Below, piece by piece: positions 9,201 through 60,494 of a stretch of DNA of 61,604 nt. Position 1 is the first letter of the stretch. The number at the start of each line of letters is the position of its first letter. Source of the stretch: an uncultured Candidatus Saccharibacteria bacterium. GTDB taxonomy: Bacteria; Patescibacteriota; Saccharimonadia; Saccharimonadales; Saccharimonadaceae. The stretch is from the NCBI GenBank assembly GCA_947304155.1, contig CAMZAD010000005.1:1-61604 (forward strand), in the 5' to 3' direction. A program made the translations under genes and the position numbers. Under the pieces are notes generated by a model that saw only the letters and a list, made by a program, of their open reading frames with translations, was not told the DNA's origin and made no database searches.

Positions 9201-10023
9201 CTTTTGGTGGAATGACGTGAAGCTGGAAGTCCTTCAAGGTCATACGATTCGTATCAGAAAGGTTAGATGCGGTACCGATACAAAGTAAAACTTCGTGTGC
9301 ATCTTGGTCGTCGTGTTTCAAATAGTGGCCATCACATGTCACAACTAGCGGCAAACCAGTCTCTTTGGCGATTCTCTGCAAACCTTGGTTAATTTTATTC
9401 TGAACATCCCAGTGGGTTGGTGAATTTGGGTGACCATGATCCTGCATCTCAAGGTAAAATCTATCGCCATAGACTTTGTGATACCACTCAACCAATTTCA
9501 TGGCGCCGTCATAGTCGCCATTTTTGAGACAAACTGAGATTTCAGAGCTAGCACAGCCAGAGAGACAGATAATTCCCTCGTTATATTGTTCCATGATTTC
9601 GTGGTCAATACGAGGTTTATAGTATTTACCATTGACTTCTGCTTCAGTAGCTAGGCGACAGAGGTTCTCAAAGCCCTTGTCATTCATCGCAAGTAAAGTA
9701 ATATGGAAGCGTTCCTTATCGTGAGCCGGGTCCTTATCCATACGACCGCGCGCCGCAACATAGGCTTCGCAGCCCAAGATTGGCTTAATTTCGGCCGCAC
9801 CCGCCTCCTTATAAAGCTCAACGAGGCCAGACATCGTGCCATGGTCCGTCACGGCCACCGCTTCCATTCCTTGCTCCTTCACATAGTGAACGAGGTCTGG
9901 AATTTTAGTTAAACCATCAAGGAGTGAATAATGAGTGTGATTATGAAGATGCACAAAATCTTTTGGCTCAAGTTTGGAGCCATCAACATCTTCGCGTTTT
10001 AGAAAAATCACCTCCTTGGTCAT
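6286..10023 (-). CDS. dnaE: DNA polymerase III alpha subunit
   Basis: A 1245-residue replicative polymerase, slightly longer than E. coli DnaE (1160). The N-terminal PHP domain starts at about residue 23 (FVHLHNHTHYSLLDG, with VTDHGTMSG). The palm carries MPDIDTDIQDTRRDEV near residue 440. The finger and tower region includes SHGVHACGVVIAP and ALYRPGPMQFI. Near the C-terminus are an OB fold (VIIGGIITNVKTLLTKS), a charged linker and a conserved tail. The -10 box TATAAT (10035-10030) ends six bases before the ATG, which is the leaderless arrangement. A perfect 11-base complement of the usual 16S rRNA 3' tail (AAGGAGGTGAT) lies inside the gene at 10017-10007, four bases after the ATG. Confidence 0.98.
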   Translation of the reverse strand: MTKEVIFLKREDVDGSKLEPKDFVHLHNHTHYSLLDGLTKIPDLVHYVKEQGMEAVAVTDHGTMSGLVELYKEAGAAEIKPILGCEAYVAARGRMDKDPAHDKERFHITLLAMNDKGFENLCRLATEAEVNGKYYKPRIDHEIMEQYNEGIICLSGCASSEISVCLKNGDYDGAMKLVEWYHKVYGDRFYLEMQDHGHPNSPTHWDVQNKINQGLQRIAKETGLPLVVTCDGHYLKHDDQDAHEVLLCIGTASNLSDTNRMTLKDFQLHVIPPKEIIDRWKDDFPEAVKNTRVIADRCTTKLELGRILIPKYEVPEGETEKSYLDKLVFQGLAFRYGGKTQEEAAKMTVEECRAILPEKVLERIDYELSVVDKMGYNGYFLIVQDFINWGKNQRIVYGPGRGSAAGAILAYALRITELDPLKYDLLFERFLNPDRISMPDIDTDIQDTRRDEVIEYCTRKYGKGRVSNICTFGKMMGKMAVRDVARVLEVPYADADRLAKMVPDPEMGHHVPLSRAIKEAPDLKREYEHNPVAKEVLDFAIKLEGTIRSHGVHACGVVIAPDDLVKFLPLEVSAKGPLATQFPSTQVEELGLLKMDFLGLMNLSVINNALRMIRKVYKNDLDLYSVPLDDPKAYELLQSAQTTGVFQLESAGMKRYLKDLKASSFEDIIAMVALYRPGPMQFIDSFIRRKHGEEPITYLHPGLENSLKSTYGIMIYQEQFMQISKEWCGFTGGQADTLRKAVGKKKVDLMNKVKPEFIKGAVEVGGATEEIAETFWGQLLDFANYCFNKSHAACYALIAYWTAYLKAHYPDAFMAALMTSDMRSTDRLAIEMSECKNMGIKVLGPDINQSYADFAIVGGENTIRFGLSAIKGMGKALIEEVVIPEREKNGPFKSVCDFAKRVDSTKFNKKSWESAIKTGAFDRFGDRSDLLFNLEQIQAYGSKMQKDSANGQTDLFGLMGDVGQIPEPEIVPAPTKIGDKERLLWERDLMGLYLSAHPLDKYDTYFEEQTHPYSYINAENDGKKVIIGGIITNVKTLLTKSNTKMAFVTIESKTASAEVLVFPKLFEENGGKFVVDNIVKIPGRINAKDKDGNPTSDIKIIADDVYVIADDTLENYEPTGTHLKEPEDAPVPRRRSKTSAERVSPKKEALPNEHQAEEESYHSITPPTDPRKQKLYILVEQPDNVEILTKIKQLCDKNLGVQEVILVLKDETGKKPLRMPFKVQASAELQSELKKVVGENAVVLK

Positions 10024-10029
10024 GTGTTT

Positions 10030-10038
10030 ATTATAGCA
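10030..10038 (-). promoter_or_regulatory. dnaE promoter, leaderless type
   Basis: Extended -10 TGCTATAAT on the minus strand, six bases from the ATG. It lies just upstream of dnaE, starting inside the 20-bp gap and reaching into nothing else; any -35 would fall inside the end of the upstream FISUMP gene. Confidence 0.7.
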
Positions 10039-10043
10039 CAGAA

Positions 10044-11369: not shown

Positions 11370-11391
11370 TTTTGCCTCCTTATTACTTATG

Positions 11392-11420
11392 ATTATACAT
11401 CGCCAAGTTGGCGTTGTAAA
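11392..11420 (-). promoter_or_regulatory. Promoter of FISUMP gene 1 with operator-like dyad
   Basis: TTTACA, 17 bp, TATAAT on the minus strand. The spacer contains the perfect dyad CGCCAA-N-TTGGCG at 11401-11413, placed where a repressor would block polymerase. No T-run follows, so it is not a terminator for the upstream gene. Confidence 0.65.
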
Positions 11421-11780: not shown

Positions 11781-11784
11781 CTAA

Positions 11785-12190: not shown

Positions 12191-12203
12191 TTTCTGATTT
12201 ATT

Positions 12204-21286: not shown

Positions 21287-21295
21287 ATTTTACCA
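21287..21295 (-). promoter_or_regulatory. Cell-wall operon promoter, leaderless type
   Basis: Extended -10 TGGTAAAAT, exactly six bases from the Mur ligase ATG. Confidence 0.65.
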
Positions 21296-24876: not shown

Positions 24877-24904
24877 TCTTAATTTTTCTCCTTTTATTAT
24901 AATG

Positions 24905-24940
24905 TCTTGACGAGCACTAATATTAAACCAGCTCGCAAGA
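24905..24940 (-). promoter_or_regulatory. tuf leader hairpin
   Basis: TCTTG-CGAGC and GCTCG-T-CAAGA form a 10-bp stem with one bulge and a 15-base loop, in the 5' leader of tuf. Confidence 0.5.
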
Positions 24941-24952
24941 TCTGATATCAAT

Positions 24953-24981
24953 ATAATATCTTATTTTTGCCAACTTGTAAA
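24953..24981 (-). promoter_or_regulatory. tuf promoter
   Basis: TTTACA, 17 bp, TATTAT on the minus strand. Confidence 0.6.
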
Positions 24982-25000
24982 GGGGGAAATTGGGCATGAA

Positions 25001-25028
25001 AAAAGCCTGACAAAATACGTCAGGCTTC
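25001..25028. terminator. Terminator of the small membrane protein operon
   Basis: AAGCCTGAC and GTCAGGCTT around AAAATAC. The last gene's TGA stop lies inside the stem. Confidence 0.85.
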
Positions 25029-25283
25029 CTCACTTTTGTTGGATTTTACGAAGTCTTCCAAGGAGTCTTTTACTTCCTCCTCTTCAGATTTTTGGTGCTT
25101 TTCTTTGCGGTGATCAGATGTCAGGCTTACAAACAGTGCCAGTAAAGAGGCACCGACGAGGCTGAAGAGCCAGATAACCAGTGTCGGTTTAAACGGGATA
25201 TTAATTTTTCCCAGTCCTGAGCCAACAGTGGCAAATAAACCGGCCCAAAAGACAAGTAGCCAAAATACAAGCATCATTAGCAC
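25020..25283 (-). CDS. Membrane microprotein D, 87 aa
   Basis: Not recognised. Two membrane helices (MMLVFWLLVFWAGLFATVG and LVIWLFSLVGASLLALFVSL) joined by a short loop, then a charged tail of about 30 residues rich in Glu, Lys and Ser (KSEEEEVKDSLEDFVKSN). Last of four co-directional tiny membrane genes; its start overlaps the previous stop by seven bases. The ATG follows AAAGGAGGGG. Confidence 0.75.
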   Translation of the reverse strand: MLMMLVFWLLVFWAGLFATVGSGLGKINIPFKPTLVIWLFSLVGASLLALFVSLTSDHRKEKHQKSEEEEVKDSLEDFVKSNKSEEA

Positions 25284-25570
25284 CCCTCCTTTCTGGTTTT
25301 ACCATCTTCCTTACCAGGAAGAAGGCAACTAAAGGACTTACCCATCAAGGTAAGTATAACAGCCGTGGAGACTGCCGCGAGTGCCATCCGTGGAACTGGA
25401 ATGTTCTCATAGCATAACCCCATAATAAACATGGAGTAAGAAGATGCTATCCAGAACCATAGGGCTTTTCTCATGACATCTGGTGTCTCCCAGTCTATGG
25501 TCAACATTAATGCAATAAAGAGAAAAAATAGCACGATAGAGAACAGAACTATGATTTCACTCCTCGTCAT
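25277..25570 (-). CDS. Membrane microprotein C, 97 aa
   Basis: Not recognised. Three membrane helices (IIVLFSIVLFFLFIALML, KALWFWIASSYSMFIMGLCY, MALAAVSTAVILTLMGKSF) and a short basic tail. The ATG follows a GGGGG-type ribosome site 15 bases after gene B. Third gene of the unit. Confidence 0.75.
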   Translation of the reverse strand: MTRSEIIVLFSIVLFFLFIALMLTIDWETPDVMRKALWFWIASSYSMFIMGLCYENIPVPRMALAAVSTAVILTLMGKSFSCLLPGKEDGKTRKEGC

Positions 25571-25585
25571 AATCTTCGCCCCCCT

Positions 25586-25846
25586 TTAATCTTCTGCAAA
25601 TTTGCGCATTGCCGAATAGAGTATTACTGACACTGCGCTAATTAATAGTGTCTCAACCATGAATTGACCAACAAATACTATGGCCAGGATGGTTGCGGGA
25701 AGAAAGAATGCTCCCCAAATTGTCAGGATACGACGTCTTTTCTTGATACTAGCGCCGTTATCCACTGCCCGCGTAAAAACGAAGGCGCCAATAAAAGTTA
25801 CTAGTAACCAGATCGTTAGAAAAACAACATCTTTTGTAATAATCAT
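25586..25846 (-). CDS. Membrane microprotein B, 86 aa
   Basis: Not recognised. Three membrane helices (VVFLTIWLLVTFIGAFVFT; ILTIWGAFFLPATILAIVF; VETLLISAVSVILYSAM), with a basic SIKKRRR loop between the first two that should be cytoplasmic. It overlaps gene A by four bases (ATGA), so translation is coupled. Confidence 0.75.
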   Translation of the reverse strand: MIITKDVVFLTIWLLVTFIGAFVFTRAVDNGASIKKRRRILTIWGAFFLPATILAIVFVGQFMVETLLISAVSVILYSAMRKFAED

Positions 25847-26025
25847 GTAGTTTCCTCCCCTTCTTCCTTGTCTGCATTCATAAGAATATGCTCATGAACA
25901 GCACAGACAGCGACCGAAATGACAAAGGTAGCGATAAACGGTACCAAGTCATCGACGACATGCCACGCCATCACGTTTAGTAACGCGAAGGCAAAACCAA
26001 TCGAAAAGATTATAAATTCCAACAT
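25843..26025 (-). CDS. Membrane microprotein A, 60 aa
   Basis: Not recognised. Two membrane helices (FIIFSIGFAFALLNVMAW and VPFIATFVISVAVCAVHEHI) with an acidic tail. First gene of the operon, with the strong ribosome site AAAGGGGG and a TTGAAA-17-TATAAT promoter. Together the four proteins offer about ten helices and could form one small membrane complex; this is inference. Confidence 0.72.
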   Translation of the reverse strand: MLEFIIFSIGFAFALLNVMAWHVVDDLVPFIATFVISVAVCAVHEHILMNADKEEGEETT

Positions 26026-26070
26026 GCGAGATCCCCCTTTCTCTGATATTAATGTACAATATTATCTTCT

Positions 26071-26099
26071 ATTATACCATAAAATGCTAAATTTTTCAA
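26071..26099 (-). promoter_or_regulatory. Promoter of the membrane microprotein operon
   Basis: TTGAAA, 17 bp, TATAAT with extended TGG. Nearly identical to the promoter at 21974-22002. Confidence 0.75.
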
Positions 26100-26140
26100 T
26101 AGTTATTATGGTTATCTCTTCCCCTGTTAGCTTAGGCATC

Positions 26141-26168
26141 AAAAAATCCCCTGTTAGAGGGGATTTTT
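26141..26168. terminator. fusA terminator
   Basis: ATCCCCT and AGGGGAT with a 5-base loop between A- and T-runs; twin of the tig terminator. Confidence 0.88.
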
Positions 26169-26174
26169 TTAAAA

Positions 26175-32403: not shown

Positions 32404-32412
32404 ATTATAACA
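32404..32412 (-). promoter_or_regulatory. gatCA-X-B promoter, leaderless type
   Basis: Extended -10 TGTTATAAT on the minus strand, six bases from the gatC ATG. It lies back to back with the -10 of the 32539 gene. Confidence 0.7.
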
Positions 32413-41294: not shown

Positions 41295-41303
41295 ATTATA
41301 TCA
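41295..41303 (-). promoter_or_regulatory. recG promoter, leaderless type
   Basis: Extended -10 TGATATAAT on the minus strand, six bases from the ATG. Confidence 0.7.
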
Positions 41304-43809: not shown

Positions 43810-45523
43810 CTTCAGGCCTCAAGACACAGCGAATAAACTCACCATCACCCCTAGATTGACCTTCATTAGTGTTAGCACCTTCTGCATAATGTACAGACAT
43901 CACAACTGTACAACAGTATTGTTCACCATATGCCCAGCATGGGCCCCTAGATGATGACGTAGAGTAAACAGCCCACTGTTCAGCAGAAGCAACATCAGCT
44001 TGTGGACCAGCGTAATTGCCTGCAAGCAAGAAGTTCAATGGATCCTGAAGAACGGTGTTTTCATCTGGATTATATAAGCTAATTAAGTTTTTATAGCTTC
44101 TAGTATCATTTGCATCACCTGTAGCAAGCTGCCACCCTTTTGGACAAATTGAATCATTCACTTCCGTTAAGGTGTCATACAAGCCCGTACCAGCAGTTGC
44201 CGCATTCCAGTTATAATAGTTTCCGGTAGATTCCCAGAGATATACATCAGTATTAGCGGTTGGAGTATCAGATTTTACTTTACCTCCCCTATAATACGCA
44301 CCAGAACCAGTACCTGTTGGGTGATACGAGAAGTCATATGGGCCAATATCAGAGTTTCCCGTACTCCAATAAATACCGACTGCAGTTTGAGTGTCACGGA
44401 CTGGAGTCCAGCTAGTTTTAGTATTAAGGTCAGTTAGCTCGTTAGTCAAAGTCACGTTTGTTGAGAGGTCGAGCGCCAAGTTTTGGCTCATCCAACAGTT
44501 GCCATCAGCGAGCTTTGAGACGAGGTAGTCTTTATTATCACGTTTATCACGCAACTTCTTGCGTGGAACATAAGTGTCGTCACCAATATGTTCACCAGTC
44601 CAGTCAAGCAAGGTCGAGTTAACATCTGGAGTAGTTGAGGCAGCACAGATTTCTGGAGTCAAATCTTGCATGTAGGTCACAGAGTGGAGTGCTGGAGTCC
44701 AAAGCGCAGTTAATGTTACACTTGGAAGGTCGCCAGCGTTAATATTTACGGAGAGCTCTTCGCCAGTAAAGGTATTAGTACCATCAGACCATCCACCAAA
44801 GAGATAACCAAGGCGAGTTGGTTTATAAGTTAAGAGATTAATAAGAGAATCATAAGCTTGTTCTGAGCTGGTATAGGAAACACCAGAAGCACCAGTGCCA
44901 CCATCAAGGTCCCAGTTTAATGTATAGGTGAGACAGGCTGGTTTTACGGCGAGGGTATAAACAATGTCGTTTGAATATGAACCTGATGGGAGGTTATTGT
45001 CTGTTTTAATACCAAATCTGATACTTAAACTATCTGGGTTAGCAGCAGCCGAAGAATCATAAACTGTAGCTGCGGAACTTGAAACTGGGACTGGATAATA
45101 ATTCGTTCCGTTATTCAATGAGTAGCCCCAAGAGTTGTTTACGAGGGCTGAGCCTGTAGTAGCACTAATTGTCTTGGTTTCTGAATCAGTTCCAATACGA
45201 GTAAGATTGTTGTCTGAGGCGGAGTTGGTTGACATCGTAACAGTAGCACCGTCAGTACATGAGTTGATAATACTGAGCGTGTCTGTGCCAGAGAAAACAG
45301 TTTGAGTATTGGTTGGAACGATAGCAATTTCCGAGGTAGCAGAAGTCGAGAGAGCAAGGTTATAGTTTACAGAACGAGTACCGCGGACAGTGATAGTTTC
45401 AGCATTAGTGCCAAAAGTTGGTGAATATAGCCAGACTGCTATGGCCGAGATAAGAAGAGTAGCCGAAAAAATACCAAGGCTAGTTACACCCCTATTAAAC
45501 CTACCTCTCCTTACTTCAATCAT
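43799..45523 (-). CDS. FISUMP-domain surface protein 2 with InlB-type repeat
   Basis: A 574-residue protein, first of three. Signal/anchor 14-35 (LGIFSATLLISAIAVWLY). Beta domain 45-200. Residues about 205-285 look like a Listeria-Bacteroides (InlB B-type) repeat: LNWDLDGGTGASGVSYTS, RLGYLFGGWSDGTNTFTGEE, VTLTALWTP. FISUMP domain 305-574: DKRDNKDYLVSKLADGNCWM, SICPKGWQLATG, EFIRCVLRP. -10 TATAAT (45535-45530) ends six bases before the ATG: predicted leaderless. An SD-like AAGGAGAGG lies inside the gene, a few codons after the start, as in dnaE. Likely a surface adhesin or stalk. Confidence 0.83.
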   Translation of the reverse strand: MIEVRRGRFNRGVTSLGIFSATLLISAIAVWLYSPTFGTNAETITVRGTRSVNYNLALSTSATSEIAIVPTNTQTVFSGTDTLSIINSCTDGATVTMSTNSASDNNLTRIGTDSETKTISATTGSALVNNSWGYSLNNGTNYYPVPVSSSAATVYDSSAAANPDSLSIRFGIKTDNNLPSGSYSNDIVYTLAVKPACLTYTLNWDLDGGTGASGVSYTSSEQAYDSLINLLTYKPTRLGYLFGGWSDGTNTFTGEELSVNINAGDLPSVTLTALWTPALHSVTYMQDLTPEICAASTTPDVNSTLLDWTGEHIGDDTYVPRKKLRDKRDNKDYLVSKLADGNCWMSQNLALDLSTNVTLTNELTDLNTKTSWTPVRDTQTAVGIYWSTGNSDIGPYDFSYHPTGTGSGAYYRGGKVKSDTPTANTDVYLWESTGNYYNWNAATAGTGLYDTLTEVNDSICPKGWQLATGDANDTRSYKNLISLYNPDENTVLQDPLNFLLAGNYAGPQADVASAEQWAVYSTSSSRGPCWAYGEQYCCTVVMSVHYAEGANTNEGQSRGDGEFIRCVLRPEDEP

Positions 45524-45529: not shown

Positions 45530-45538
45530 ATTATAGCA
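45530..45538 (-). promoter_or_regulatory. FISUMP cluster promoter, leaderless type
   Basis: Extended -10 TGCTATAAT on the minus strand, six bases from the ATG of FISUMP 2. Confidence 0.65.
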
Positions 45539-46432: not shown

Positions 46433-46438
46433 AAGTAT

Positions 46439-46467
46439 ATTATATCATATTTGATACTCTCTGTAAA
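46439..46467 (-). promoter_or_regulatory. trmD promoter, leaderless type
   Basis: TTTACA, 17 bp, TATAAT (extended TGA), six bases from the ATG. Shares DNA with the divergent promoter at 46451-46479. Confidence 0.75.
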
Positions 46468-46479
46468 ACATGTTATAAT
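46451..46479 (+). promoter_or_regulatory. Promoter of the Cys-rich gene
   Basis: TTGATA, 17 bp, TATAAT on the plus strand, interleaved with the trmD promoter. Confidence 0.75.
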
Positions 46480-46512
46480 AATAAAAATACATTGCAGAAA
46501 GGAGGGCAAGCA

Positions 46513-47061
46513 ATGAGTACGTTTGATCAGGCGATAATTGATCATATCGCCAAGTGCACGAAGGATGTCACAAGGCATTACAAGCATAACTTTGACGAGA
46601 CGAAACAGTGCAACTACGAGCTCTGTAAAGAATGTGGAGGCAAATGTTGCAAGTGTTGTGGCTGTCATTTCTCGCCGGATGATTTCTCAGATCTCTCTTT
46701 TGATGGCTTACTTAAGGAGATTAAAAAGGGCTACATTACACTTGAGATTATTGACGGCGAGCATTATGCTATCAACGATATACTCTGGTTAGTGAGGATG
46801 CGCAACGTGAATAGTCCCGTAATTGAGCGGAGAATTTACGAGCGCGAGCGTGCAGCTTGTGTTGCCTTAAAAGAAAATGGATGTGCGCTCGATTTTGCAC
46901 ATCGCCCATCCGGTGGCAAACTATTAATCCCCGCTAAGAACCGCGAGTGTACTAGTTCTTATACTGTTAGAGAGTCACTCTTAGAGTGGCGAGTCTACAA
47001 GGATATCTTAGTTAAACTTGTAAATTTTATAGGCGAGAAAGATTATCCGTGCACAATTTAA
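46513..47061 (+). CDS. Cys-rich protein, YkgJ-like metal-cluster candidate, 182 aa
   Basis: Residues 35-60 hold a dense cysteine cluster (CNYELCKECGGKCCKCCGCH) like the CxxxCxxCC sites of the YkgJ/UPF0153 zinc- or iron-chelating family; two further Cys-bearing stretches follow (RAACVALKENGCALDFAHRP and NRECTSSYTVRESLLEW), the usual layout of that family. Probably a cytoplasmic metal-binding protein; partner unknown. The start at 46513 follows AAAGGAGGG; a frame seven codons longer would bury that site. Confidence 0.65.
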   Translation: MSTFDQAIIDHIAKCTKDVTRHYKHNFDETKQCNYELCKECGGKCCKCCGCHFSPDDFSDLSFDGLLKEIKKGYITLEIIDGEHYAINDILWLVRMRNVNSPVIERRIYERERAACVALKENGCALDFAHRPSGGKLLIPAKNRECTSSYTVRESLLEWRVYKDILVKLVNFIGEKDYPCTI

Positions 47062-47086
47062 AAAGACCTCTTTCGAGGTCTTTTTT
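47061..47086. terminator. Bidirectional terminator between the Cys-rich gene and obgE
   Basis: AAAAGACCTC and GAGGTCTTTT around TTTC, a perfect 10-bp stem. Confidence 0.88.
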
Positions 47087-47088
47087 CT

Positions 47089-48528
47089 TTAGTCGTCCCA
47101 GCCTTCAACTAATGTGAAGCGGTGACCTGAGATTTCAATAATGTCATCTGGGCCAGCGCCGCGTGAAGTAAGTTCGGCGCGAATACCAAGTTTTTTCATA
47201 ATATCGCGAAGACGGTTCAAAGATTCGTAGTTATCGTAATCGGTGCGGCGAGCAAATTTCTCAATTTTTTCACCAGTAACGCTAAAGTGTTTAGTGATAT
47301 TTCCCTCTTCATCCTCAAACGGTTCAAGTTCAATCACTTCCCAGTTGTTCTTCACATTCTTTGGATTAAGTTTAATTACTGGAAGCGCATCAGTTTTTGC
47401 GACTGGAGAGTTTTCAAATGATTCTGGAGAATCAAGTGAAATATGAGCGATCCCCTCTTCATCAAAGTTTTCTGGAGCTATTACTACTGCTTCGGCTGCA
47501 CTTTTTTCGGCATTTTTCTTAGATTTTTCAATTTCATCTTTCAAAGCGAAGAGCAATTCATCAAGACCCTGATGGGCAGCGCTAGAGATTGCAAAGACCT
47601 TTGCATTTTTATTTTTTGCGAGAATAGCAGATTCTTGCATTTTAATAATCTCCGGATCCAAGCCTTCGCATTTTGTCAAAGCAACAATTTCTGGACGGTC
47701 TTTAAGGTCTGAATATTTATTAAGTTCGTTTCTAATAGTTTCATAAGCCTTGCCAGCATCGTCATTATAAACATCAATAAGGTGAAGCAAGACTGCAGTG
47801 CGGTCAACGTGACGAAGGAAGGCATGGCCGAGACCTTTACCTTCTGATGCGCCTTCAATAAGACCAGGAATATCGGCAATTAAAATGTCACGTCGGTCTT
47901 TTGAAGATGATGAACGACCAGTGGAACCAACCGTAGCGACGCCAAGGTTTGGTGTGATAGTTGTAAATGGATAATCAGCGATTTCTGGTTTAGCGTTCGT
48001 AACGACAGAAAGGAAGGTTGACTTACCTGCATTCGGAAGACCAACGAGACCAACGTCTGCGAGAAGTTTGAGCTCAAGTTCAGCTTCAAAAGCTTCACCT
48101 GGCTCACCCACTTCATGGATGATTGGAGTTTGGCGAGTTGAAGACTTAAAGTGGGCATTACCAAAGCCGCCGTCGCCACCTTTGGCGATTACAGCTTCTT
48201 CTTGGTCACGGGTAAGGTCGGCAATAACAACACCGTCACGCTTAACAACTGTGCCGATTGGAACTTCAATAATCAAATCTTTACCGGCACGACCTGCAGA
48301 GCGGGTGCCTGAGCCGTTTTTACCATCTTCGGCTTTCCATTCTGGATTAAAACGGAAGTCTAAAAGTGTGTTTGTATCTTTGTCTGCACGGAAAATAATT
48401 GAACCACCTTTACCGCCATCGCCACCATCTGGACCACCTTTTGGAATATAAATTTCATGGCGAAAAGAGACGGCACCATCACCGCCTTTACCGGCTTGTA
48501 ATTTCACTTTTGCAGTATCAACAAACAT
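47089..48528 (-). CDS. obgE: GTPase Obg
   Basis: A 479-residue Obg. Glycine-rich Obg domain 1-157 (QAGKGGDGAVSFRHEIYIPK, GGDGGFGNAHFKSSTRQTP); G1 GLPNAGKST at 163-171; switch DYPFTTI; G3 DIPGLIEGASEGKGLGH; G4 TKCE (family TKxD); the C-terminal OCT domain ends AGPDDIIEISGHRFTLVEGW. It assists 50S maturation and links to (p)ppGpp. The -10 TATAAT ends eight bases before the ATG, giving a two-base leader at most. Confidence 0.97.
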   Translation of the reverse strand: MFVDTAKVKLQAGKGGDGAVSFRHEIYIPKGGPDGGDGGKGGSIIFRADKDTNTLLDFRFNPEWKAEDGKNGSGTRSAGRAGKDLIIEVPIGTVVKRDGVVIADLTRDQEEAVIAKGGDGGFGNAHFKSSTRQTPIIHEVGEPGEAFEAELELKLLADVGLVGLPNAGKSTFLSVVTNAKPEIADYPFTTITPNLGVATVGSTGRSSSSKDRRDILIADIPGLIEGASEGKGLGHAFLRHVDRTAVLLHLIDVYNDDAGKAYETIRNELNKYSDLKDRPEIVALTKCEGLDPEIIKMQESAILAKNKNAKVFAISSAAHQGLDELLFALKDEIEKSKKNAEKSAAEAVVIAPENFDEEGIAHISLDSPESFENSPVAKTDALPVIKLNPKNVKNNWEVIELEPFEDEEGNITKHFSVTGEKIEKFARRTDYDNYESLNRLRDIMKKLGIRAELTSRGAGPDDIIEISGHRFTLVEGWDD

Positions 48529-48577
48529 ATGCCCTTATTATATCACAAAATGCTTATTTTTCAAGGTTTAGCCCCTG

Positions 48578-49695: not shown

Positions 49696-51366
49696 CTATA
49701 AGGCTACGTTGCAGAGAATTCGGCAATACTTTCGGATGTTCTGATTGTGCCCTGCCTCAGTATCACTATAATACATCTTTCCGTCGTCCCCTGTCAAGAA
49801 ATAGTACATTGACTTCTTCGAGCTATCAGGATCAGCAACAGCGAGTAGAGCGTTAAGTCCAGGGTTTGAAATTGGGCCTGGAGTTAGGCCGGCACTAACA
49901 CGTGTATTATAAGGAGATTTATATCTAATAATGTCATAGTTTGAAACTAGTTTCTTACGCATTGGGTCAACAAGATCGGCGGCATAAGTAGCAGTTACAT
50001 CTGAGCCAAGCATCATACCAACGCGGACGCGATTAATAAAGACTTGCGCAACGCCTTTCATGTCGGCTGCTCTAGCTTCCTTCTGGACGATACTCGCCAA
50101 GATAATACCCTCTCTCAAACTTAGTCCTTGAGCCTTAAATTTTGCTTCAAGGTCATTTTTCTTAACGACATTTTCTAGAGCATCAAGAGTTGTGACGATA
50201 ATTTTATCGATTGACTCACCATTATAGAATTGATAGGTGTCGCCAAAAATGTAGCCTTCGAGTTGGACTGCGATTGGCTGAGCAGAGCTACTTAAATTAC
50301 CATTCTCGCCATAGAGACCCTTCAAAATTGGGTGGTCGTATTGTTTTTCAAAAGCAATCTTAATTTCTTCTGCAGTGTATCCCTGTTTTTCGAGCTTCTT
50401 CTTAATATCCGCAACGGTTTCGCCAGGCAAGAAAGTAATATTAAAGACATTATCATCTGCCACACCTTTAATAAATACATCTACGATATCAGCAGTGCTC
50501 ATAGTTGAACGAAGTTGATATTCGCCAGCCTTGATGTCGCTCGCCGTGCCAGATAGTTTTGTATAAATTTTCATTGCAAGGTCGGACTTAATTAAATTCG
50601 CATCCTTAAGATTTTTTGAAATTATCGCAACGGACTCATCATTTGAGACCTTAAAGTGGACATATCTACATTCTTCGATCTCTTCAGACTCTTCACTTAA
50701 AGCCGCTTCTTCAGGTGTTTTGAATTTACATTCTTTGACATTGACTGGTTTTAGTGAATAGGTATACCAAAAGTATGCAAGCCCACCGAGCACAGCCCCA
50801 AGCAAGACAATTGAACCAAAAACTGCGCCAAGGACGGTCCCGAGTTTATGCTTGTCTTTTTTGGATTTTGCCACTTTTTTGATTACTTTCTCACTGTTAT
50901 TTTGACTGTCGTTCTCTTTTTTAGCATCTTCTGAAGTATATGGTTTTGTATCAGGTCGGCCATTGGTAATTAACCGTTCAAGGAAGTCCTGCAAGATAAT
51001 GCTAGCAGCTTCGGCATCAATATCGCCTTTTTGATAACCCTTTTTACGCTCTTTCAAACGTCGCTCTGCCTCAACTGAAGTTAATGATTCATCCTGGAAA
51101 TAAATATTCGTATTTGGAATGCTCATTGCGAGTTCGCGTGCGAACTGGCGCACGTATTCACTCTGCTTCGTTTCTGCGCCTTCATTATTGCGTGGTAAAC
51201 CCATCACAAAAGTTGAAGTTTTATTGAGTTTTGCGATGCGAGCAATTTCGGCAAATTCTTGACCGTTAACTTGGACTACGCCATTTGGGACGGCAATTTT
51301 CGTAGCAGAATCAGCCTTCGCGACACCAATGCGTTTAGTGCCGACATCAAGTCCAATCAGCTTCAT
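49696..51366 (-). CDS. RuvX (YqgF)-MltG fusion: Holliday-junction resolvase-like domain joined to endolytic transglycosylase
   Basis: A 556-residue two-domain protein. Residues 1-135 are a full RuvX/YqgF domain: LIGLDVGTKRIGVA with Asp7, YFQDESLTSVEAERRL with Glu93, GDIDAEAASIILQDFL with Asp117. A charged linker leads to one membrane helix at 178-203. Residues about 305-545 are MltG: FLPGETVADIKKKL, LEGYIFGDTYQF, ASIVQKEA with catalytic Glu430, and YNTRVSAGLTPGPISNPG. RuvX would face the cytoplasm and MltG the outside. ruvX and mltG are often neighbours in other bacteria, so fusion by stop-codon loss is plausible. GGAGG precedes the ATG, which shares one base with the upstream stop. Confidence 0.92.
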   Translation of the reverse strand: MKLIGLDVGTKRIGVAKADSATKIAVPNGVVQVNGQEFAEIARIAKLNKTSTFVMGLPRNNEGAETKQSEYVRQFARELAMSIPNTNIYFQDESLTSVEAERRLKERKKGYQKGDIDAEAASIILQDFLERLITNGRPDTKPYTSEDAKKENDSQNNSEKVIKKVAKSKKDKHKLGTVLGAVFGSIVLLGAVLGGLAYFWYTYSLKPVNVKECKFKTPEEAALSEESEEIEECRYVHFKVSNDESVAIISKNLKDANLIKSDLAMKIYTKLSGTASDIKAGEYQLRSTMSTADIVDVFIKGVADDNVFNITFLPGETVADIKKKLEKQGYTAEEIKIAFEKQYDHPILKGLYGENGNLSSSAQPIAVQLEGYIFGDTYQFYNGESIDKIIVTTLDALENVVKKNDLEAKFKAQGLSLREGIILASIVQKEARAADMKGVAQVFINRVRVGMMLGSDVTATYAADLVDPMRKKLVSNYDIIRYKSPYNTRVSAGLTPGPISNPGLNALLAVADPDSSKKSMYYFLTGDDGKMYYSDTEAGHNQNIRKYCRILCNVAL

Positions 51367-53090
51367 TAGTCCTCCGTCTCGGCTTCAATTTTAATCTCTA
51401 CTTTGTTCTCGTCATTTGGAACACTGTATACCCATGGGAAGCTTACTTCAGTATCAACCTTGTAAACGCCACGTGATAAATCTTTAATTAGTGCTTTAAC
51501 CTCGCCGATTTTACGTCCTTTAATTGTTTCTAGGATTTTCTTTTCAGAGATTTCCGGACCATATTTTACATTAACTTTAATCTTTGCGGTGTAGCTAGTC
51601 TTATCATTCTCATACACACGATCAAAGTGAATATTGCTATATGAGTAGATTACGTCATTATTATCAAGTACATTTGCTGTTGTCATGTAATTCTTAGAGT
51701 AGTTTTCAATTGCTACACGGTCAACAACATAGATTGTATAGGTAGTTTTTGCAGTCAGTTTAGCTTTTTTACCCTCTTCTACAACCTCATTTTTAGCTGG
51801 CTTAGAGACAGGTTCCTTAGTTTCAACTTTATAGGTTGATTCGATTTTGACCATATCGTTATCATTGATTTGTTCAATGAGTTTCTGCTTTGCTTCTTCG
51901 TTGTTTTCAAGTTGAGACTTTGCGTCTTCAATGTCTGATTCAGTAACAACTTTTACCATCTTATCGGTACCACCAGTGATTGCTGAGTCAGTATAAGCAA
52001 GCAAGGTTCGACCTTCGATCTTCCAACCAGTATTCTTTGCACTTTCAATATTGTATTTTGTACCAGCTTCAGTTGCTACAACGTCGGCGCGGCCATAAAT
52101 AATACATCCACCATCCTGTAAAACGGTTGTCTTATTAGCACAGTCTGAATTTGACCAAGTTTCTTTAAGTGTAATTGTAAGTGCGTCTTTCGTGGCATAA
52201 CTTAAATCACCGTTAGTAATAACAGTGCCAGCTGGGACAACAACGGTAGCTGAGTTTGCAAAGACTGCGCCAATCACGATTGTACCGGTGGCTTTTTCTC
52301 CATGGTTTGCTGTCCCGGTTGCGTCAAATTCAACTGAAGATTCATCTTCATATTTAACTTGCTCAAGCAAGAATTTACCTGCGTTTATGTCAACGTCTTT
52401 TTCGTTTTTTACGAGTGTAGTATTCTCGGAAATCTGGTATGAAGAAGCGCTAAGTTTCACGTTAATCTTTACGAATGGAGCGATTACAAGCGCCCAAACT
52501 AGGAAGACAATAAGGAGCATAAAGACGGTTGCGCCGATGATTATCCATTTGCGATATTTATCAAAGTTAGGGATTTTTGAAACTTTGTTATCTTTTTTCT
52601 TCTTTTTATCTTTCTCTGCGTCATCTATCTCGTCAGAGTCAATTTCTACGTCATCTTTTTTTGCTTTTACAGCAGCACCAGCCACCTCAGCAGATTCTTC
52701 ACCTGCTTCAGCTTCAGTGGATTCTGTCTTTTCTTCAGTATTCTCTCCTGCTTCTACGGTTTCAGGAGCAACCTCTTCAGCCTTTTTCTCAGCTTTTTTG
52801 CGATTTATAAACTCTGAAGGCAAAATTGGGCGTGAGTTTAGATTCTTTGAGATTGGTAAGCCAGCCATAGCCGACATTTTAATCAGGCTAGTATCTGTTG
52901 TAATAATTACAACAGCCTTATCACTAGCTTTGGCAGTTTTTGCAATTAATTTTACGTTCACAGCTGAACGTAACACACCTAACTTTTTAGGTGGAACAAG
53001 TGCGACGACTTTTTGTTTCGCAGTTTTAATCCGGTTAATAATATCTGTGATATCATCTTCCGGCTCAATATAGATGACGTCTTTATTCAT
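51366..53090 (-). CDS. Baseplate J-like membrane protein, 574 aa
   Basis: Residues 1-90 are a small alpha/beta domain (VIYIEPEDDITDIINRIKTA, VVALVPPKKLGVLRSAVN). Residues 95-175 are a Glu/Ala/Lys-rich disordered stretch. A membrane helix lies at 182-208 (WIIIGATVFMLLIVFLVWAL). The outer part, 210-574, is beta-rich, with TGTIVIGAVFANSATVVVPA and GTVITNGDLSYATKDALTIT resembling the Baseplate_J core. In phage-like machines that core links baseplate parts; in CPR genomes single genes like this are chromosomal and their role is unknown. It is co-transcribed with RuvX-MltG. The -10 TAAAAT (53102-53097) ends six bases before the ATG: predicted leaderless. Confidence 0.65.
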   Translation of the reverse strand: MNKDVIYIEPEDDITDIINRIKTAKQKVVALVPPKKLGVLRSAVNVKLIAKTAKASDKAVVIITTDTSLIKMSAMAGLPISKNLNSRPILPSEFINRKKAEKKAEEVAPETVEAGENTEEKTESTEAEAGEESAEVAGAAVKAKKDDVEIDSDEIDDAEKDKKKKKDNKVSKIPNFDKYRKWIIIGATVFMLLIVFLVWALVIAPFVKINVKLSASSYQISENTTLVKNEKDVDINAGKFLLEQVKYEDESSVEFDATGTANHGEKATGTIVIGAVFANSATVVVPAGTVITNGDLSYATKDALTITLKETWSNSDCANKTTVLQDGGCIIYGRADVVATEAGTKYNIESAKNTGWKIEGRTLLAYTDSAITGGTDKMVKVVTESDIEDAKSQLENNEEAKQKLIEQINDNDMVKIESTYKVETKEPVSKPAKNEVVEEGKKAKLTAKTTYTIYVVDRVAIENYSKNYMTTANVLDNNDVIYSYSNIHFDRVYENDKTSYTAKIKVNVKYGPEISEKKILETIKGRKIGEVKALIKDLSRGVYKVDTEVSFPWVYSVPNDENKVEIKIEAETED

Positions 53091-53096: not shown

Positions 53097-53105
53097 ATTT
53101 TACCA
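53097..53105 (-). promoter_or_regulatory. Baseplate J-like / RuvX-MltG operon promoter, leaderless type
   Basis: Extended -10 TGGTAAAAT, six bases from the ATG; faces the kinase promoter about 35 bp away. Confidence 0.65.
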
Positions 53106-53134
53106 TATATTTTTGAAGATTCCTAAAGTTTTTA

Positions 53135-53143
53135 TGGTAAAAT
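53135..53143 (+). promoter_or_regulatory. Histidine kinase promoter, leaderless type
   Basis: Extended -10 TGGTAAAAT on the plus strand, seven bases before the ATG at 53151. Confidence 0.65.
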
Positions 53144-53150
53144 GAACTCA

Positions 53151-54650
53151 ATGGGTATTTTCAGTAGAAATAAAAATTCAGGCGTAGTAGCGGGTTCAGG
53201 CATTACATCAGGAACTCAGGGTGGCGCCGAGCAAATGTTGCTCGCTAGTATGGTGCTTGACTCAATTTCCGAGGGTGTGATTATTGTTGACGCACAAAAT
53301 ATTGTGCGTATGATTAACCCTGCTGCGCTCGCGATGGTAGGTTATAATACCCCAGATGCAGTGATGAATGTAAATGTTGCTGGTCTTTTGACTTTTGAAA
53401 ATGGTGAAGGCGTAAAGATTGAGGATTCCGCAAATGAGGTTTTTGCGGCACTCGCCAAGAATCAGGAATTCACTACACGTTCTTATGTTCTCGTAAATGT
53501 TTTGCAACAGAAGAAGGCTGTAGCTATAACAATTACCCTTTCAAAGACTGGCCGTGGCGAAAAAATTATTTCCATGCGTGATATTGCAAAGGAACTTGAA
53601 GAAGAGGGTGAGCAGGCCGAATTCATTTCAACCGCCTCACATGAGATGAGAACTCCAGTCGCTTCAATTGAGGGCTACCTTGGTTTGGCACTTAACCCAC
53701 AATGTGCAACTATTGATGATCGCGCTAGAAAATATCTTGAAGAGGCGCACGCTTCATCTCAGCATCTCGGTCGTTTGTTTAAAGACTTACTTGATGTAAC
53801 TAAACTTGACGACAAAAAAGCTAAGGTCCATCTTGTTCCAACGGAGGTAAATAGCTTAGTTCGCGAAATTGTTAGTGGTCAGATTCCAATGATGGGTCAA
53901 AAGAATATTAAGTTCACTTTTGGCGCAAATGACGGCGTTGATGGTTCAACTAGTGGCATCCGAACAATTGACCAAGTTTCGTACGCTTTAGTTGACGTAG
54001 ATTTCATGCGTGAAATTATTAATAACTTAGTTGAAAATGCCATTAAATACACCAAAGAAGGCGGGGCAATTTGGGTAAATGTTCGTGGCGATGGTGACCG
54101 TGTTTTGATTAATGTAACAGATACTGGCATTGGTATTTCGCCAGATGATTTGAAGCATATTTTCCAAAAGTTCTATCGCGTAGACAACTCACAAACTCGC
54201 GAAATTGGTGGCACTGGTCTTGGGCTTTATATTGTAAAGATGCGCGCTGAAGCGATGGGTGGCAAGATTTGGGCTGAAAGCTCATTTGGCGAGGGCTCAA
54301 CTTTCTATCTCAGCTTGCCAAGGCTTACTTTTGAAGAGTATGAACGCAGAAAACAGATTATTGCAAACACCGAGATGATGAGCGTAAATAATGTCGCAGC
54401 TCAGACTCAGGCACAGGTGCCAGGTCAACAAATTACGACTCCAATGCAACCAGCAATTCCACCGGTTCAACCGACTGTGATTCCTACCCAACCAGTTCAA
54501 CCAGTCCAGGTAGCAGTTCCAACTCAGCCAGCTCCGCAACCTGCACCGGTTCAGCCAGTTCCAGTGCAGCCAATTCAGCCTGTTCCAGCGCAGCCAATTC
54601 AGCCTGCTCCAGCGCCGCAAACACAACCAGGAATTCCAGGTCAAATGTAA
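53151..54650 (+). CDS. Soluble PAS-type histidine kinase with Pro/Gln-rich tail, 499 aa
   Basis: No membrane helix. PAS-like sensor at 30-145 (MVLDSISEGVIIVDAQNIVR, NPAALAMVGYN). HisKA with His164 in STASHEMRTP. HATPase_c: INNLVENAIKYTKEGG (N box), VTDTGIGISPDDLKHIFQKF (G1/F), GGTGLGLYIVK (G2). Residues 415-499 are almost only Pro, Gln, Val, Ala, Ile and Thr (VQPVPVQPIQPVPAQPIQP). The ATG at 53142 overlaps the -10 box, so 53151 (MGIFSRNKNS) is the likely start, with at most one base of leader. It is followed by its response regulator. Signal unknown, presumably cytoplasmic. Confidence 0.93.
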   Translation: MGIFSRNKNSGVVAGSGITSGTQGGAEQMLLASMVLDSISEGVIIVDAQNIVRMINPAALAMVGYNTPDAVMNVNVAGLLTFENGEGVKIEDSANEVFAALAKNQEFTTRSYVLVNVLQQKKAVAITITLSKTGRGEKIISMRDIAKELEEEGEQAEFISTASHEMRTPVASIEGYLGLALNPQCATIDDRARKYLEEAHASSQHLGRLFKDLLDVTKLDDKKAKVHLVPTEVNSLVREIVSGQIPMMGQKNIKFTFGANDGVDGSTSGIRTIDQVSYALVDVDFMREIINNLVENAIKYTKEGGAIWVNVRGDGDRVLINVTDTGIGISPDDLKHIFQKFYRVDNSQTREIGGTGLGLYIVKMRAEAMGGKIWAESSFGEGSTFYLSLPRLTFEEYERRKQIIANTEMMSVNNVAAQTQAQVPGQQITTPMQPAIPPVQPTVIPTQPVQPVQVAVPTQPAPQPAPVQPVPVQPIQPVPAQPIQPAPAPQTQPGIPGQM

Positions 54651-55350: not shown

Positions 55351-55366
55351 TATTTTGTGATATAAT
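55338..55366 (+). promoter_or_regulatory. Pseudouridine synthase promoter, leaderless type
   Basis: TGGACA, 17 bp, TATAAT (extended TGA), six bases before the ATG at 55373. The -35 lies inside the end of the regulator gene. Confidence 0.7.
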
Positions 55367-58078: not shown

Positions 58079-58098
58079 CTGTCTTTATCCTTATGTTT

Positions 58099-58127: not shown

Positions 58128-58140
58128 AGTTTGCTATACT
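58112..58140 (+). promoter_or_regulatory. nusA promoter
   Basis: TTGACT, 17 bp, TATACT (extended TGC) on the plus strand; interleaved with the divergent promoter, so the two cannot be occupied together. Confidence 0.75.
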
Positions 58141-58150
58141 ATAGGTAAGA

Positions 58151-58172
58151 ATCCGACCTGAAGAAGGCCGGA
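58151..58172 (+). promoter_or_regulatory. nusA leader hairpin
   Basis: TCCG-A-CCT pairs with AGG-C-CGGA around a short loop, just after the predicted +1. No strong T-run; a 5' stabiliser or autoregulatory site is possible. Confidence 0.4.
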
Positions 58173-58200
58173 TAATTTTAACTAAAAAGAAAGGTAAAAA

Positions 58201-59301
58201 ATGGAAGGACTTGATCTTAAATCCATGACCGCGATGGTAAAAGTCATCGCAGAAGAAAAAAACTTGACTGAAGATACTGTGCTTGATGTAATTCAAACCG
58301 CAATTGCTGCTGCTTGGCGCAAAGAGGAAGGCGAGAAGGACATGAATGTCCGCGCAACTTTAAACCTCAAAACCGGTGAAGCATTTGTCTTTATCGACCG
58401 TGAAGTAATTGAAGATGGTTTGGCATACAACCCAGCTACTGAAATTCCACAATCTGAAGCTAAAGGCAAAGAAATCGGTGAAATCGTTGAAGAAAAACGC
58501 GAAGTTAAAACCTTCGGCCGTGTCGCTTCAATGACCGCAAAACAAGTTATCGTTCAACGTCTTCGCGAAGCAGAACGCGACTCAGTTCTTTCAATGTTTG
58601 AAGACAAAGTTGGTACAATCGTTACCGGCGTAGTTTCACGCGTTGAGCCAAAAATCGTTCGCATCGACCTTGGCAAGGCTTCTGGTATCATGCCAAAGAG
58701 CGAACAAATCGACGGCGAATATTACTCTGTTGGTGCACGTATCAAGGTTCTTATCAAAGAAATTGAACGCAATGAACGTGGCGCACAACTTATTCTCTCT
58801 CGTGGCTCTGCAGAGTTCGTCAAACAACTCTTCATCCAAGAAGTTCCTGAAATCGAAAACGGCACCGTTGAAATCCGCGCTATCGCACGTGAAGCTGGTC
58901 GCCGTACCAAAATCGCTGTTATTAACACTGTTCCTGGCGTAGACCCAGTCGGTACCTTCGTCGGTGGCCGTGGTGTTCGTGTCCAAGCTGTGATGAATGA
59001 AATCGGTGAACGCGAAAAAATCGACATCATCAACTGGAGTGACAACGCTTCTGAATACATCCGCGAAGCTCTTTCTCCAGCTGAAATCATGAAAGTTGAA
59101 ATCGAAGGCAAGCACGCTAAGGTCTTTGTCACTGAAGATCAACAATCTATCGCAATTGGCCGCCAAGGTCAAAACGTCCGTCTCGCTTCTAAGCTTACCG
59201 GTTTCGAACTCGACATCGAGCTCGCCGAAGCTCCAAAGAAGAAGAAAAAGACTAACGTCGAAGATTCTCTCTTCTCAGCAATCGAAGAATCTGAAGAATA
59301 A
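58201..59301 (+). CDS. nusA: Transcription termination/antitermination factor NusA
   Basis: A 366-residue NusA: N-terminal RNA-polymerase-binding domain (1-120, VIQTAIAAAWRKEEGEKDMN), S1 domain (GTIVTGVVSRVEPKIVRIDL), KH1 (FVKQLFIQEVPEIENGTVEI, GRRTKIAVINTVPGVDPVG) and KH2 (GKHAKVFVTEDQQSIAIGRQ). It lacks the E. coli acidic repeats, as most NusA do. AAAGAAAGG precedes the ATG. It is a monocistronic unit, not joined to rimP and infB as is usual. Confidence 0.97.
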   Translation: MEGLDLKSMTAMVKVIAEEKNLTEDTVLDVIQTAIAAAWRKEEGEKDMNVRATLNLKTGEAFVFIDREVIEDGLAYNPATEIPQSEAKGKEIGEIVEEKREVKTFGRVASMTAKQVIVQRLREAERDSVLSMFEDKVGTIVTGVVSRVEPKIVRIDLGKASGIMPKSEQIDGEYYSVGARIKVLIKEIERNERGAQLILSRGSAEFVKQLFIQEVPEIENGTVEIRAIAREAGRRTKIAVINTVPGVDPVGTFVGGRGVRVQAVMNEIGEREKIDIINWSDNASEYIREALSPAEIMKVEIEGKHAKVFVTEDQQSIAIGRQGQNVRLASKLTGFELDIELAEAPKKKKKTNVEDSLFSAIEESEE

Positions 59302-59303
59302 TC

Positions 59304-59335
59304 AAAAAATCCACCTCGTTTGGGGTGGATTTTTG
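59304..59335. terminator. Bidirectional terminator between nusA and the CDF gene
   Basis: ATCCACC and GGTGGAT with an 8-base loop between A- and T-runs. Confidence 0.85.
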
Positions 59336-59342
59336 ATGCTTT

Positions 59343-60479
59343 TTATTTTTCGCCTTCGTCTTCAAGTTCAATCGTGACGTCGGAAATACCAGTGCTTTTT
59401 AGTTGTTTTCGGATTTCTTGCTTAATATTGAAGCGATTTGGCACACTATTTTCAATAAAGACACCGTCCACAATTTTACCGTCAACTACGACGTGCATTG
59501 TAGCATACATCTTCGTACCATCCATGCTCCAAAGATGGAGATGGTGGACTTTTTTGACGTGTGGGATTGCAAGCACTTGATACTTCACAATATCAACCGA
59601 GATGCCGTTTGGAACTTTTTCAAGGAAGAGCTCCAAGACTTTCTTAAAGCTGCTGATACTTGAAATCATTAGGTAAACTGAGATAACAATTGACATGATT
59701 GGATCGAGCCAATTCCAGTTCGTCACTAGCATTACAACAGAGCCAGCGAGTACTACAATCCAGCCAATCACATCTTCAAGCACGATTTCATTTACAGTGC
59801 CCTTCGAGATAGCCTTTACGATATTAAAGCGCCCATCTGCGGTTCTAAAGGCTGCAATTGTATTAATCAAAAGCCCAATTACAGATAAGATTATCATGAG
59901 CTTGACATCTATGTCGGTTGGAATAATAAGTTTTAGAATCGAGACATAAATCATAAAGGCAGCACCGACAACGAGCACGACAGTCGTAACGAATACGCCT
60001 AAAATTGAGAATCTTGAATAGCCGTAGGTGTAGTTTTTATCTGGGCCATGTTTAGACTTTTTGCCGAAATAAATTGCAAAACCAAGCGAAAGTGCATCGC
60101 CAAAATCATGAATTGCGTCTGAGATAATTGCAGCAGACCCCGAGAAAAGCCCGCCAATTAGTTCAAAAATCGCAAAAACAAAGTTAATAATTAACCCAGA
60201 AAAGACTTTACCAGAGATATTTTGCCTCTTTAAGAAGCCTCTAATTCCCCTCTTTTCGCGTCCATAAACAGCATTTTTAGTATTTGCGACTGCAAGTTTT
60301 GCGCTTTCTACAGCAACTTTTTGAGCCTTAATTTCCGCCTTTTTCTGTAATCTTTTCTGTTTACGGAAGTTTTTTAGCTCGTTTCTTTTGCTCTTAGAAT
60401 CAATTCTAGCAGCGCGATTGGCGTTTCTTTCCGCCCTTTTCATGCGCTTTCTAGCACTTTTAATATCTCGGTTAACCAT
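59343..60479 (-). CDS. Cation diffusion facilitator transporter with basic N-terminal extension
   Basis: A 378-residue CDF. Residues 1-80 are an unusual Lys/Arg/Ala-rich helix (ARKRMKRAERNANRAARIDS), probably coiled-coil and cytoplasmic. Six membrane helices follow; the metal site shows in SDAIHDFGDALSLG (His and Asp of TM2) and VLEDVIGWIVVLAG (TM5), and the C-terminal domain has PHVKKVHHLHLWSMDGTK. It exports Zn, Mn, Fe or similar by proton exchange. The -10 TAAAAT (60491-60486) is six bases from the ATG at 60479; an ATG two codons upstream abuts the -10 and is rejected. Confidence 0.9.
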   Translation of the reverse strand: MVNRDIKSARKRMKRAERNANRAARIDSKSKRNELKNFRKQKRLQKKAEIKAQKVAVESAKLAVANTKNAVYGREKRGIRGFLKRQNISGKVFSGLIINFVFAIFELIGGLFSGSAAIISDAIHDFGDALSLGFAIYFGKKSKHGPDKNYTYGYSRFSILGVFVTTVVLVVGAAFMIYVSILKLIIPTDIDVKLMIILSVIGLLINTIAAFRTADGRFNIVKAISKGTVNEIVLEDVIGWIVVLAGSVVMLVTNWNWLDPIMSIVISVYLMISSISSFKKVLELFLEKVPNGISVDIVKYQVLAIPHVKKVHHLHLWSMDGTKMYATMHVVVDGKIVDGVFIENSVPNRFNIKQEIRKQLKSTGISDVTIELEDEGEK

Positions 60480-60485
60480 AAGCAT

Positions 60486-60494
60486 ATTTTACCA
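60486..60494 (-). promoter_or_regulatory. CDF gene promoter, leaderless type
   Basis: Extended -10 TGGTAAAAT on the minus strand, six bases from the ATG. Confidence 0.65.

Follow-up and report, generated by a model that had tools for sequence, protein, structure and literature searches.

A conserved hexamer at a fixed distance from start codons

The window analysed here, the whole 61,604-base stretch of contig CAMZAD010000005.1, is contig 5 of the 770,681-base assembly GCA_947304155.1, from an uncultured bacterium that its dnaE gene places among Candidatus Saccharibacteria and that probably belongs to the genus Nanosyncoccus. A first-pass annotation had proposed that nine genes in this DNA are transcribed without a 5' leader, since at each of them a TATAAT or TAAAAT hexamer appeared to end exactly six bases before the ATG start codon, with no Shine-Dalgarno (SD) sequence. 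We located the hexamer at precisely this spacing in 9/9 cases. On the reverse strand TATAAT precedes dnaE (ATG at 10023, hexamer at 10030..10035), gatC (32397; 32404..32409), recG (41288; 41295..41300), a gene that had been labelled FISUMP 2 (45523; 45530..45535), for which the FISUMP-domain match is weak and under the model cut-off, and trmD (46432; 46439..46444), while on the forward strand it precedes a pseudouridine synthase gene (55373; 55361..55366). TAAAAT is found, always on the reverse strand, before a Mur ligase-like gene (21280; 21287..21292), a gene that had been called baseplate J-like (53090; 53097..53102) and a CDF transporter gene (60479; 60486..60491). Directly upstream of the hexamer all nine sites carry a TGn motif that had been overlooked: TGc at dnaE and at 45523, TGt at gatC, TGa at recG, trmD and the pseudouridine synthase gene, and TGg at the three TAAAAT sites.

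Three further starts have slightly longer spacings, which again agree with the earlier description. TATAAT lies 7 bases before the ATG at 4568 (4576..4581, reverse strand) and 8 bases before the ATG at 48528 (48537..48542, reverse strand), in genes whose respective names, tig and obgE, come from the first-pass annotation only. TAAAAT lies 7 bases before the histidine kinase ATG at 53151 (53138..53143, forward strand); this gene is divergent to the one starting at 53090, with 60 bases between both ATGs. The motifs GGAG, GAGG and AAGGA are absent before all 12 starts.

The position of the hexamer also bears on gene calling. For the histidine kinase it fits the start at 53151, and the ATG of the longest open reading frame, at 53142, falls within the hexamer itself (window 53134-53153); for the CDF gene it fits the start at 60479, and the ATG of the longest frame is at 60485 (window 60479-60491). 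Because these longest-frame ATGs lie inside the hexamer or the spacer, naive gene callers would misplace both starts. The label of the gene at 51366-53090 (reverse strand) as baseplate J-like is unsupported, with no Pfam or NCBIfam match at E<=0.001. At the contig end (60572-61604, reverse strand) lie the 3' part of a 23S rRNA gene and a 5S rRNA gene, followed by hairpins with T-runs and then by the upstream region of the CDF gene. Two gaps of the window hold no genes called by our script, 24877-26174 (1298 bases) and 46433-47088 (656 bases).

The hexamer is enriched before lead genes

The window was combined with 316 kb of the same genome, giving a sample of 377,604 bases (49% of the genome; GC content 41%). 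A simple hexamer script called 329 genes in this sample, which were divided by gene spacing into 221 genes leading a transcription unit, 88 internal genes and 20 edge genes. We searched for a TATAAT-like hexamer matching at 5 of 6 positions (hereafter the 5-of-6 box) and defined spacing as the number of bases between the end of the box and the ATG. At spacings 6-7 before an in-frame ATG the box was found at 62/221 lead genes, compared with 9.3 expected from spacings 10-30 on the presumption that the background is flat across spacings, and at 3/88 internal and 1/20 edge genes. In the window alone it occurs at 10/35 lead genes versus 1.1 expected, a set that leaves out the CDF gene as an edge gene. 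A -10-like element about 12 bases (from its first T) before the start codon, the arrangement of the TA-led genes discussed below, is therefore present above chance and is nearly restricted to the first genes of transcription units as judged from gene spacing. A looser TANNNT box was dropped as a measure in this genome because it is too common (64 observed, 28.8 expected).

Counts of patterns gave the same result. Over the whole genome TANAATN6ATG occurs 139 times and its reversed pattern 21 times, with 91 and 7 occurrences respectively for TATAATN6ATG. In a gene-free count of the 377,604-base sample, spacings 6 and 7 between TATAAT and ATG occur 45 and 23 times, respectively, compared with a mean of about 7 for the other 38 spacings, and ATG follows TGnTATAAT at spacing 6 in 29/120 instances. 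Neither GTG nor TTG peaks at spacing 6 after TATAAT, whether counted gene-free or by gene. A genome-wide count of the six-base spacing against a control, which the first-pass annotation had put forward as a check, thus yields a clear excess. It could be argued that TATAAT is simply common in a genome of this composition, but chance is contradicted by both the reversed-pattern and the spacing controls, and the same test applied to Escherichia coli returned nothing (5-of-6 box at 0/89 lead genes; TANNNT at 3/89 versus 5.4 expected), leaving this explanation with a practically negligible probability.

The box has the features of an extended -10 promoter

Extended -10 promoters recognised with sigma70 or sigmaA are a known promoter class, in which TGn stands just upstream of the hexamer. 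Although TGn was not a selection criterion, it precedes the box in 45 of the 62 lead genes. When 66 sites were aligned with the hexamer numbered -6 to -1, 57 had T at -9, 48 had G at -8, 57 had a purine at -10 and 47 had T at -11; a weak TTGaaa motif also emerged 17 bases before the hexamer. A -35 sequence as the main element was considered and rejected, because TTGACA followed by 17 bases and TATAAT occurs only twice in the sample and never with ATG at spacing 6.

At 8/15 tRNA genes in the sample, too, a box with TGn stands 9-17 bases upstream of the mature end. Since tRNAs are not translated, the box is a promoter element and not a ribosome site. Moreover, the base immediately before the ATG is T or C in 41/46 spacing-6 lead genes, compared with 59/115 of the other lead genes starting with ATG. 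A pyrimidine at -1 and a purine at +1 are typical of transcription starts, and the bias therefore fits initiation at the A of the ATG. By their sequence features the boxes are classed as extended -10 promoters.

The box might instead be an AT-rich translational signal, such as a binding site for S1 or a ribosome standby site. Such a signal would also be AT-rich, would keep a fixed distance to the ATG and would suit the lack of SD sequences, and S1 protein is present in this organism; furthermore, in one genome of the phylum (G392) internal genes are boxed almost as often (4/24) as lead genes (7/40). However, a ribosome signal would be needed equally at internal starts, and there the box is rare, both in our sample (3/88) and across the 26 comparison genomes described below (14/368). 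The tRNA genes, the TGn and weak -35 motifs, which are features read by polymerase, and the flat profile of GTG and TTG starts likewise contradict a translational role, which we regard as very unlikely.

The ATG following the box is the probable translation start

We asked whether protein sequences agree with the ATG positions. In the ATG reading of gatC and trmD, position 1 of the GatC model aligns to residue 3 and position 1 of the TrmD model to residue 4, and for the pseudouridine synthase position 2 of an RsuA-type model aligns to residue 4, in a match under the model cut-off. Relatives of dnaE were also compared, using 80 loci kept of 530 found in Saccharibacteria records, largely from animal gut and including Candidatus Nanosyncoccus alces; these loci are not independent of one another. 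The box precedes an in-frame ATG in 41/80 loci, with spacing 6 in 38 and spacing 7 in 3, and TG is rightly placed in 38 of the 41. In at least nine boxed loci (L016, L023, L041, L046, L049, L055, L061, L072 and L073) no other ATG, GTG or TTG occurs between the dnaE ATG and a shared [SA]D[FY]VHLH block 6-9 residues after it. The conservation of spacing that had been anticipated among related genomes is thus borne out for about half of the loci, while in 39/80 the box is missing at spacings 6 and 7; four of these (L010, L044, L047 and L087) carry it at spacing 8-10, and the remaining 35 are without one. On visual inspection, most of the unboxed loci (from the L009-L088 set) seem to abut an upstream reading frame.

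These data bear on the suggestion that the boxes are true promoters, with translation beginning at a downstream codon and the ATG at +1 lying within a short leader. SD-like runs are found inside the first codons in 32/41 boxed dnaE relatives, as this arrangement would require, and an A at +1 is partly expected from the purine preference of transcription starts. Nevertheless, a start codon lies 4-12 bases after such a run in only 2/41 relatives, the nine loci listed above offer no alternative start before the shared block, and the GatC and TrmD models begin almost at the ATG. Nor would a purine preference at +1 raise ATG sixfold while leaving GTG flat. Translation from a downstream codon is, in our judgement, extremely unlikely.

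Two classes of start share one promoter type

GGAG or GAGG precedes 1/66 starts of the leaderless type, compared with 55/159 other lead genes and 38/85 internal genes, so that the boxed starts lack SD sequences as TA-led genes do. Among lead genes with an SD sequence, an extended -10 motif was found within 120 bases in 33/78, at distances of 18-88 bases, although the shortage of boxes closer than 18 bases is partly built in, because genes with spacing 6-7 were set aside and the SD occupies part of the last 18 bases. With +1 about 7 bases past the hexamer, a distance of 18 bases would give a leader of about 12 bases, which is about the minimum for an SD. Judged by its motifs, a single kind of promoter appears to serve both classes, its distance to the ATG going with the class, and the division into two start classes made in the first-pass annotation is upheld. 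In addition, 22 genes have the box only at spacings 8-9, probably corresponding to leaders of 1-3 bases.

Compaction of the genome is evident at these promoters: in six of 29 divergent gene pairs both members are leaderless, and in five of the six the two ATGs are only 22-67 bases apart. This arrangement speaks against the box being a secondary promoter on genes whose main mRNAs are longer and come from upstream promoters or read-through, because little room is left for a leader. Some boxes also lie close behind a hairpin with a T-run (identified by eye), as at the CDF gene (60479), where the hairpin is downstream of the 5S rRNA gene. The short distance to the stop codon of the preceding gene on the same strand (median 52 bases, n=44, two overlapping) would favour read-through, but overall we hold this possibility to be very improbable.

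The apparatus for SD-dependent initiation is apparently retained. The 3' end of 16S rRNA in a relative (G026, the sole 16S gene found among 30 genomes of the genus) reads GGATTACCTCCTTTCT, with the anti-SD ACCTCC intact; no 16S gene was found in the assembly studied here. IF3 is present in 55/60 genomes, including our own, which also encodes, on another contig, a reading frame containing four S1 domains. Loss of IF3, S1 or the anti-SD as a cause of leaderless starts was considered and is unsupported, and leaderless-type starts occur side by side with a normal SD apparatus. An IF3_C match is missing from G043 and G057, two genomes of the order rated 94 and 97% complete, which may reflect assembly gaps. 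The window itself contains a 367-amino-acid open frame (58201-59301, forward strand) with one S1 domain (58603-58791).

Leaderless initiation as the preferred interpretation

We consider it highly likely that the named genes, and the class to which they belong, are leaderless. The position of the boxes, their promoter anatomy, the statistics, the conservation and the division into two classes are observed, and the 5' end of the mRNA and the mode of ribosome entry are deduced from them. The spacing, the identity of the promoter, its restriction to lead genes and the pyrimidine at -1 support a +1 at the A of the ATG, as first proposed, and the exclusive use of ATG, the lack of SD sequences and the 6-base spacing before dnaE in relatives fit equally well. 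With 62/221 lead genes and 66/329 called genes involved, it was fair to call this a main mode. According to this model, the housekeeping RNA polymerase holoenzyme would recognise the extended -10 sequence TRTGnTATAAT together with the weak TTGaaa 17 bases further upstream. Where the hexamer ends 6 or 7 bases short of the ATG, the first transcribed base would be the A of this ATG, giving an mRNA without a 5' leader, and ribosomes would initiate at the 5'-terminal AUG without SD pairing. In the second class a like promoter at least 18 bases upstream would generate a leader of at least about 12 bases, long enough to carry an SD; many operon-internal genes carry one too.

Several observations weigh against the leaderless interpretation. 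An AT-rich bias at -20 to -10 is by itself no proof of leaderless mRNA (Nakagawa 2017, PMC5397173; TM7 is not included in the available text of that study). The gene calls come from a simple script, lead and internal status was inferred from spacing, expected counts presume a flat background, and with the loose TANNNT box the excess becomes smaller. Spacing 9 is also raised (15 versus 4.7 expected), so that leaders of 2-3 bases may precede some of the starts. Among the dnaE relatives, nearly half lack the box at the expected position, SD-like runs in the first codons are frequent and translation of dnaE may begin in frame upstream of the box; in the pooled loci, which are not independent, 11/158 internal genes carry a box at spacing 6, and in G392 lead and internal genes hardly differ. 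Finally, this organism encodes IF3 and a four-domain S1, so that it is not driven to leaderless starts by the loss of either.

Leaderless genes of the TA-led type were reported in 207 of 953 bacterial genomes (Zheng 2011, PMC3160421), and leaderless transcription has been predicted in 21.6% of bacterial species (cited in StartLink, PMC9581028). The first-pass annotation was right in referring to a known kind, but the precedents it named, Deinococcus and Actinobacteria, were too few considering the 207 genomes. The genes described here resemble TA-led genes (PMC3160421) in having a promoter-like TANNNT about 12 bases (from its first T) before the start and no SD, and the same paper describes a peak of TG ahead of the box in low-GC genomes, with Lactococcus as an example. 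The leaderless groups named in section 7 of that paper, however, include one "unclassified" genome and no TM7 or other candidate phylum, and TM7 is absent from its main text. In Deinococcus-Thermus the placement is the same (D. deserti plasmid 1, TANNNT at 12/82 lead genes versus 1.8 expected), but the 5-of-6 box is nearly absent there (1/82), whereas here TATAAT occurs with TGn. Mycobacteria also use leaderless GTG starts, in contrast to the ATG-only peak in this genome. The share of leaderless genes, about one fifth, is like that of Actinobacteria (PMC3160421). The boxes are also like extended -10 sigma70/sigmaA promoters, with TRTGn directly before TATAAT and a weak -35, but differ from the usual ones in being placed so that the start codon should be +1.

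The first-pass annotation knew of no earlier description as a main mode for this group, and among the open-licence PMC papers that our searches listed we likewise found no description of leaderless transcription for Saccharibacteria, Patescibacteria or the candidate phyla radiation (CPR); in the available text of PMC6851277, PMC7441243, PMC10434106, PMC12369343 and PMC13361665 the search words are used in unrelated senses. We do not claim priority, as the species list of GeneMarkS-2 (PMC6028130) could contain Saccharibacteria.

Distribution across Patescibacteria

The strict pattern TATAATN6ATG is found 61-142 times per genome in all 55 genomes of the genus, with intermediate counts in some other genera of the family. 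In N. alces it occurs 107 times against 4 for the reversed pattern, and at the gene level 18/48 lead genes have the box at spacing 6-7 (3.3 expected), with TGn in 17 of the 18. Four pattern counts made in N. alces are identical to those of G001, a genome of the host genus, and the assignment to Nanosyncoccus is probable on this ground. Pooled ratios of TATAATN6ATG to control spacings fall from 6.05 in the genus (55 genomes) to 3.45 in the rest of the family (77) and 2.1 in other families (56). These ratios cover 188 of 294 rows (all 132 of the family, 56/162 others), and the value of 2.1 is biased upward, because of the 56 genomes 34 were taken from the top of the list, most of them as the single entry for a family, and the other 22 were chosen by hand, in most cases for their high counts. 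Exact counts, which would suggest a trait of one genus, were rejected as a measure because the gene-level test detects a looser box and spacing 7 in other families; they mainly show the use of a strict consensus.

The same gene-level test was applied to 26 comparison genomes (80 kb each, translation table 11 throughout), which were chosen for long contigs and not at random. By nominal Poisson p-values, with no correction for how many genomes were tested, boxes were in excess at spacing 6-7 in 10/10 genomes from other families of the order (p<0.01 in nine, 0.011 in one), which pooled gave 74/457 lead genes (base 6.8 per spacing) and 3/159 internal genes. Elsewhere in the phylum p<0.01 was obtained for 9/15 genomes; G326, G376 and G445 gave values of 0.03-0.06, G336, G478 and G565 showed no excess, and the pooled counts were 96/675 lead (base 13.3 per spacing) and 10/191 internal genes. 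Across all 26 genomes the box precedes 188/1180 lead genes versus 14/368 internal genes, with a share of lead genes per genome of 0.02-0.38, and of 0.11-0.27 in 22/26 (5-of-6 box, background included). Pooled TANNNT counts were 129/457 in other families of the order (base 22.9) and 175/675 in the rest of the phylum (base 38.9). In 259 phylum genomes outside the host's class (the same-phylum rows of 286, with 27 own-class rows left out), TGNTATAATN6ATG occurs 1807 times versus 261 for its spacing-12 version. TGn is more typical of the host genus (45/62) than of most others, with 8/10 in G459.

The signature is therefore real in the host, as the first-pass annotation had it, but wider in scope, extending over the order and most of a small phylum sample. 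It is plausible, and on balance slightly favoured, that AUG-only leaderless initiation with sigma70-type promoters is phylum-wide and perhaps ancestral in Patescibacteria (CPR), serving some 10-40% of lead genes in most lineages and having become most stringent, as TRTGnTATAAT-N6-ATG, in the course of genome compaction in the Nanosyncoccus-like genus.

Our reading is very probably right, and the case would be an unusually clean new example of an already known kind of leaderless gene. What is new lies in the extended -10 element, the use of ATG only and one promoter type for two start classes, as well as the wide occurrence among Saccharibacteria and in much of a sample of Patescibacteria, which represent a large and mostly uncultured share of bacterial diversity. 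If a fifth of Saccharibacteria genes are leaderless, many deposited genomes may carry wrongly placed gene starts, and expression constructs for these bacteria would need a different upstream design. Their ribosomes would offer a natural system that combines leaderless and SD initiation under one promoter type, and start codons that mark +1 would allow promoter maps to be drawn for uncultured genomes.

Two observations on the comparison genomes are added here. GGAG and GAGG are nearly absent from three phylum genomes (L169-L172, L181-L184 and L201-L204): G497 (0/31 other lead, 0/8 internal genes), G376 (0/42 and 0/12) and G429 (1/40 and 0/20). In G326 (L165-L168) only 32 genes were called in 80 kb with table 11, possibly reflecting a recoded stop codon.

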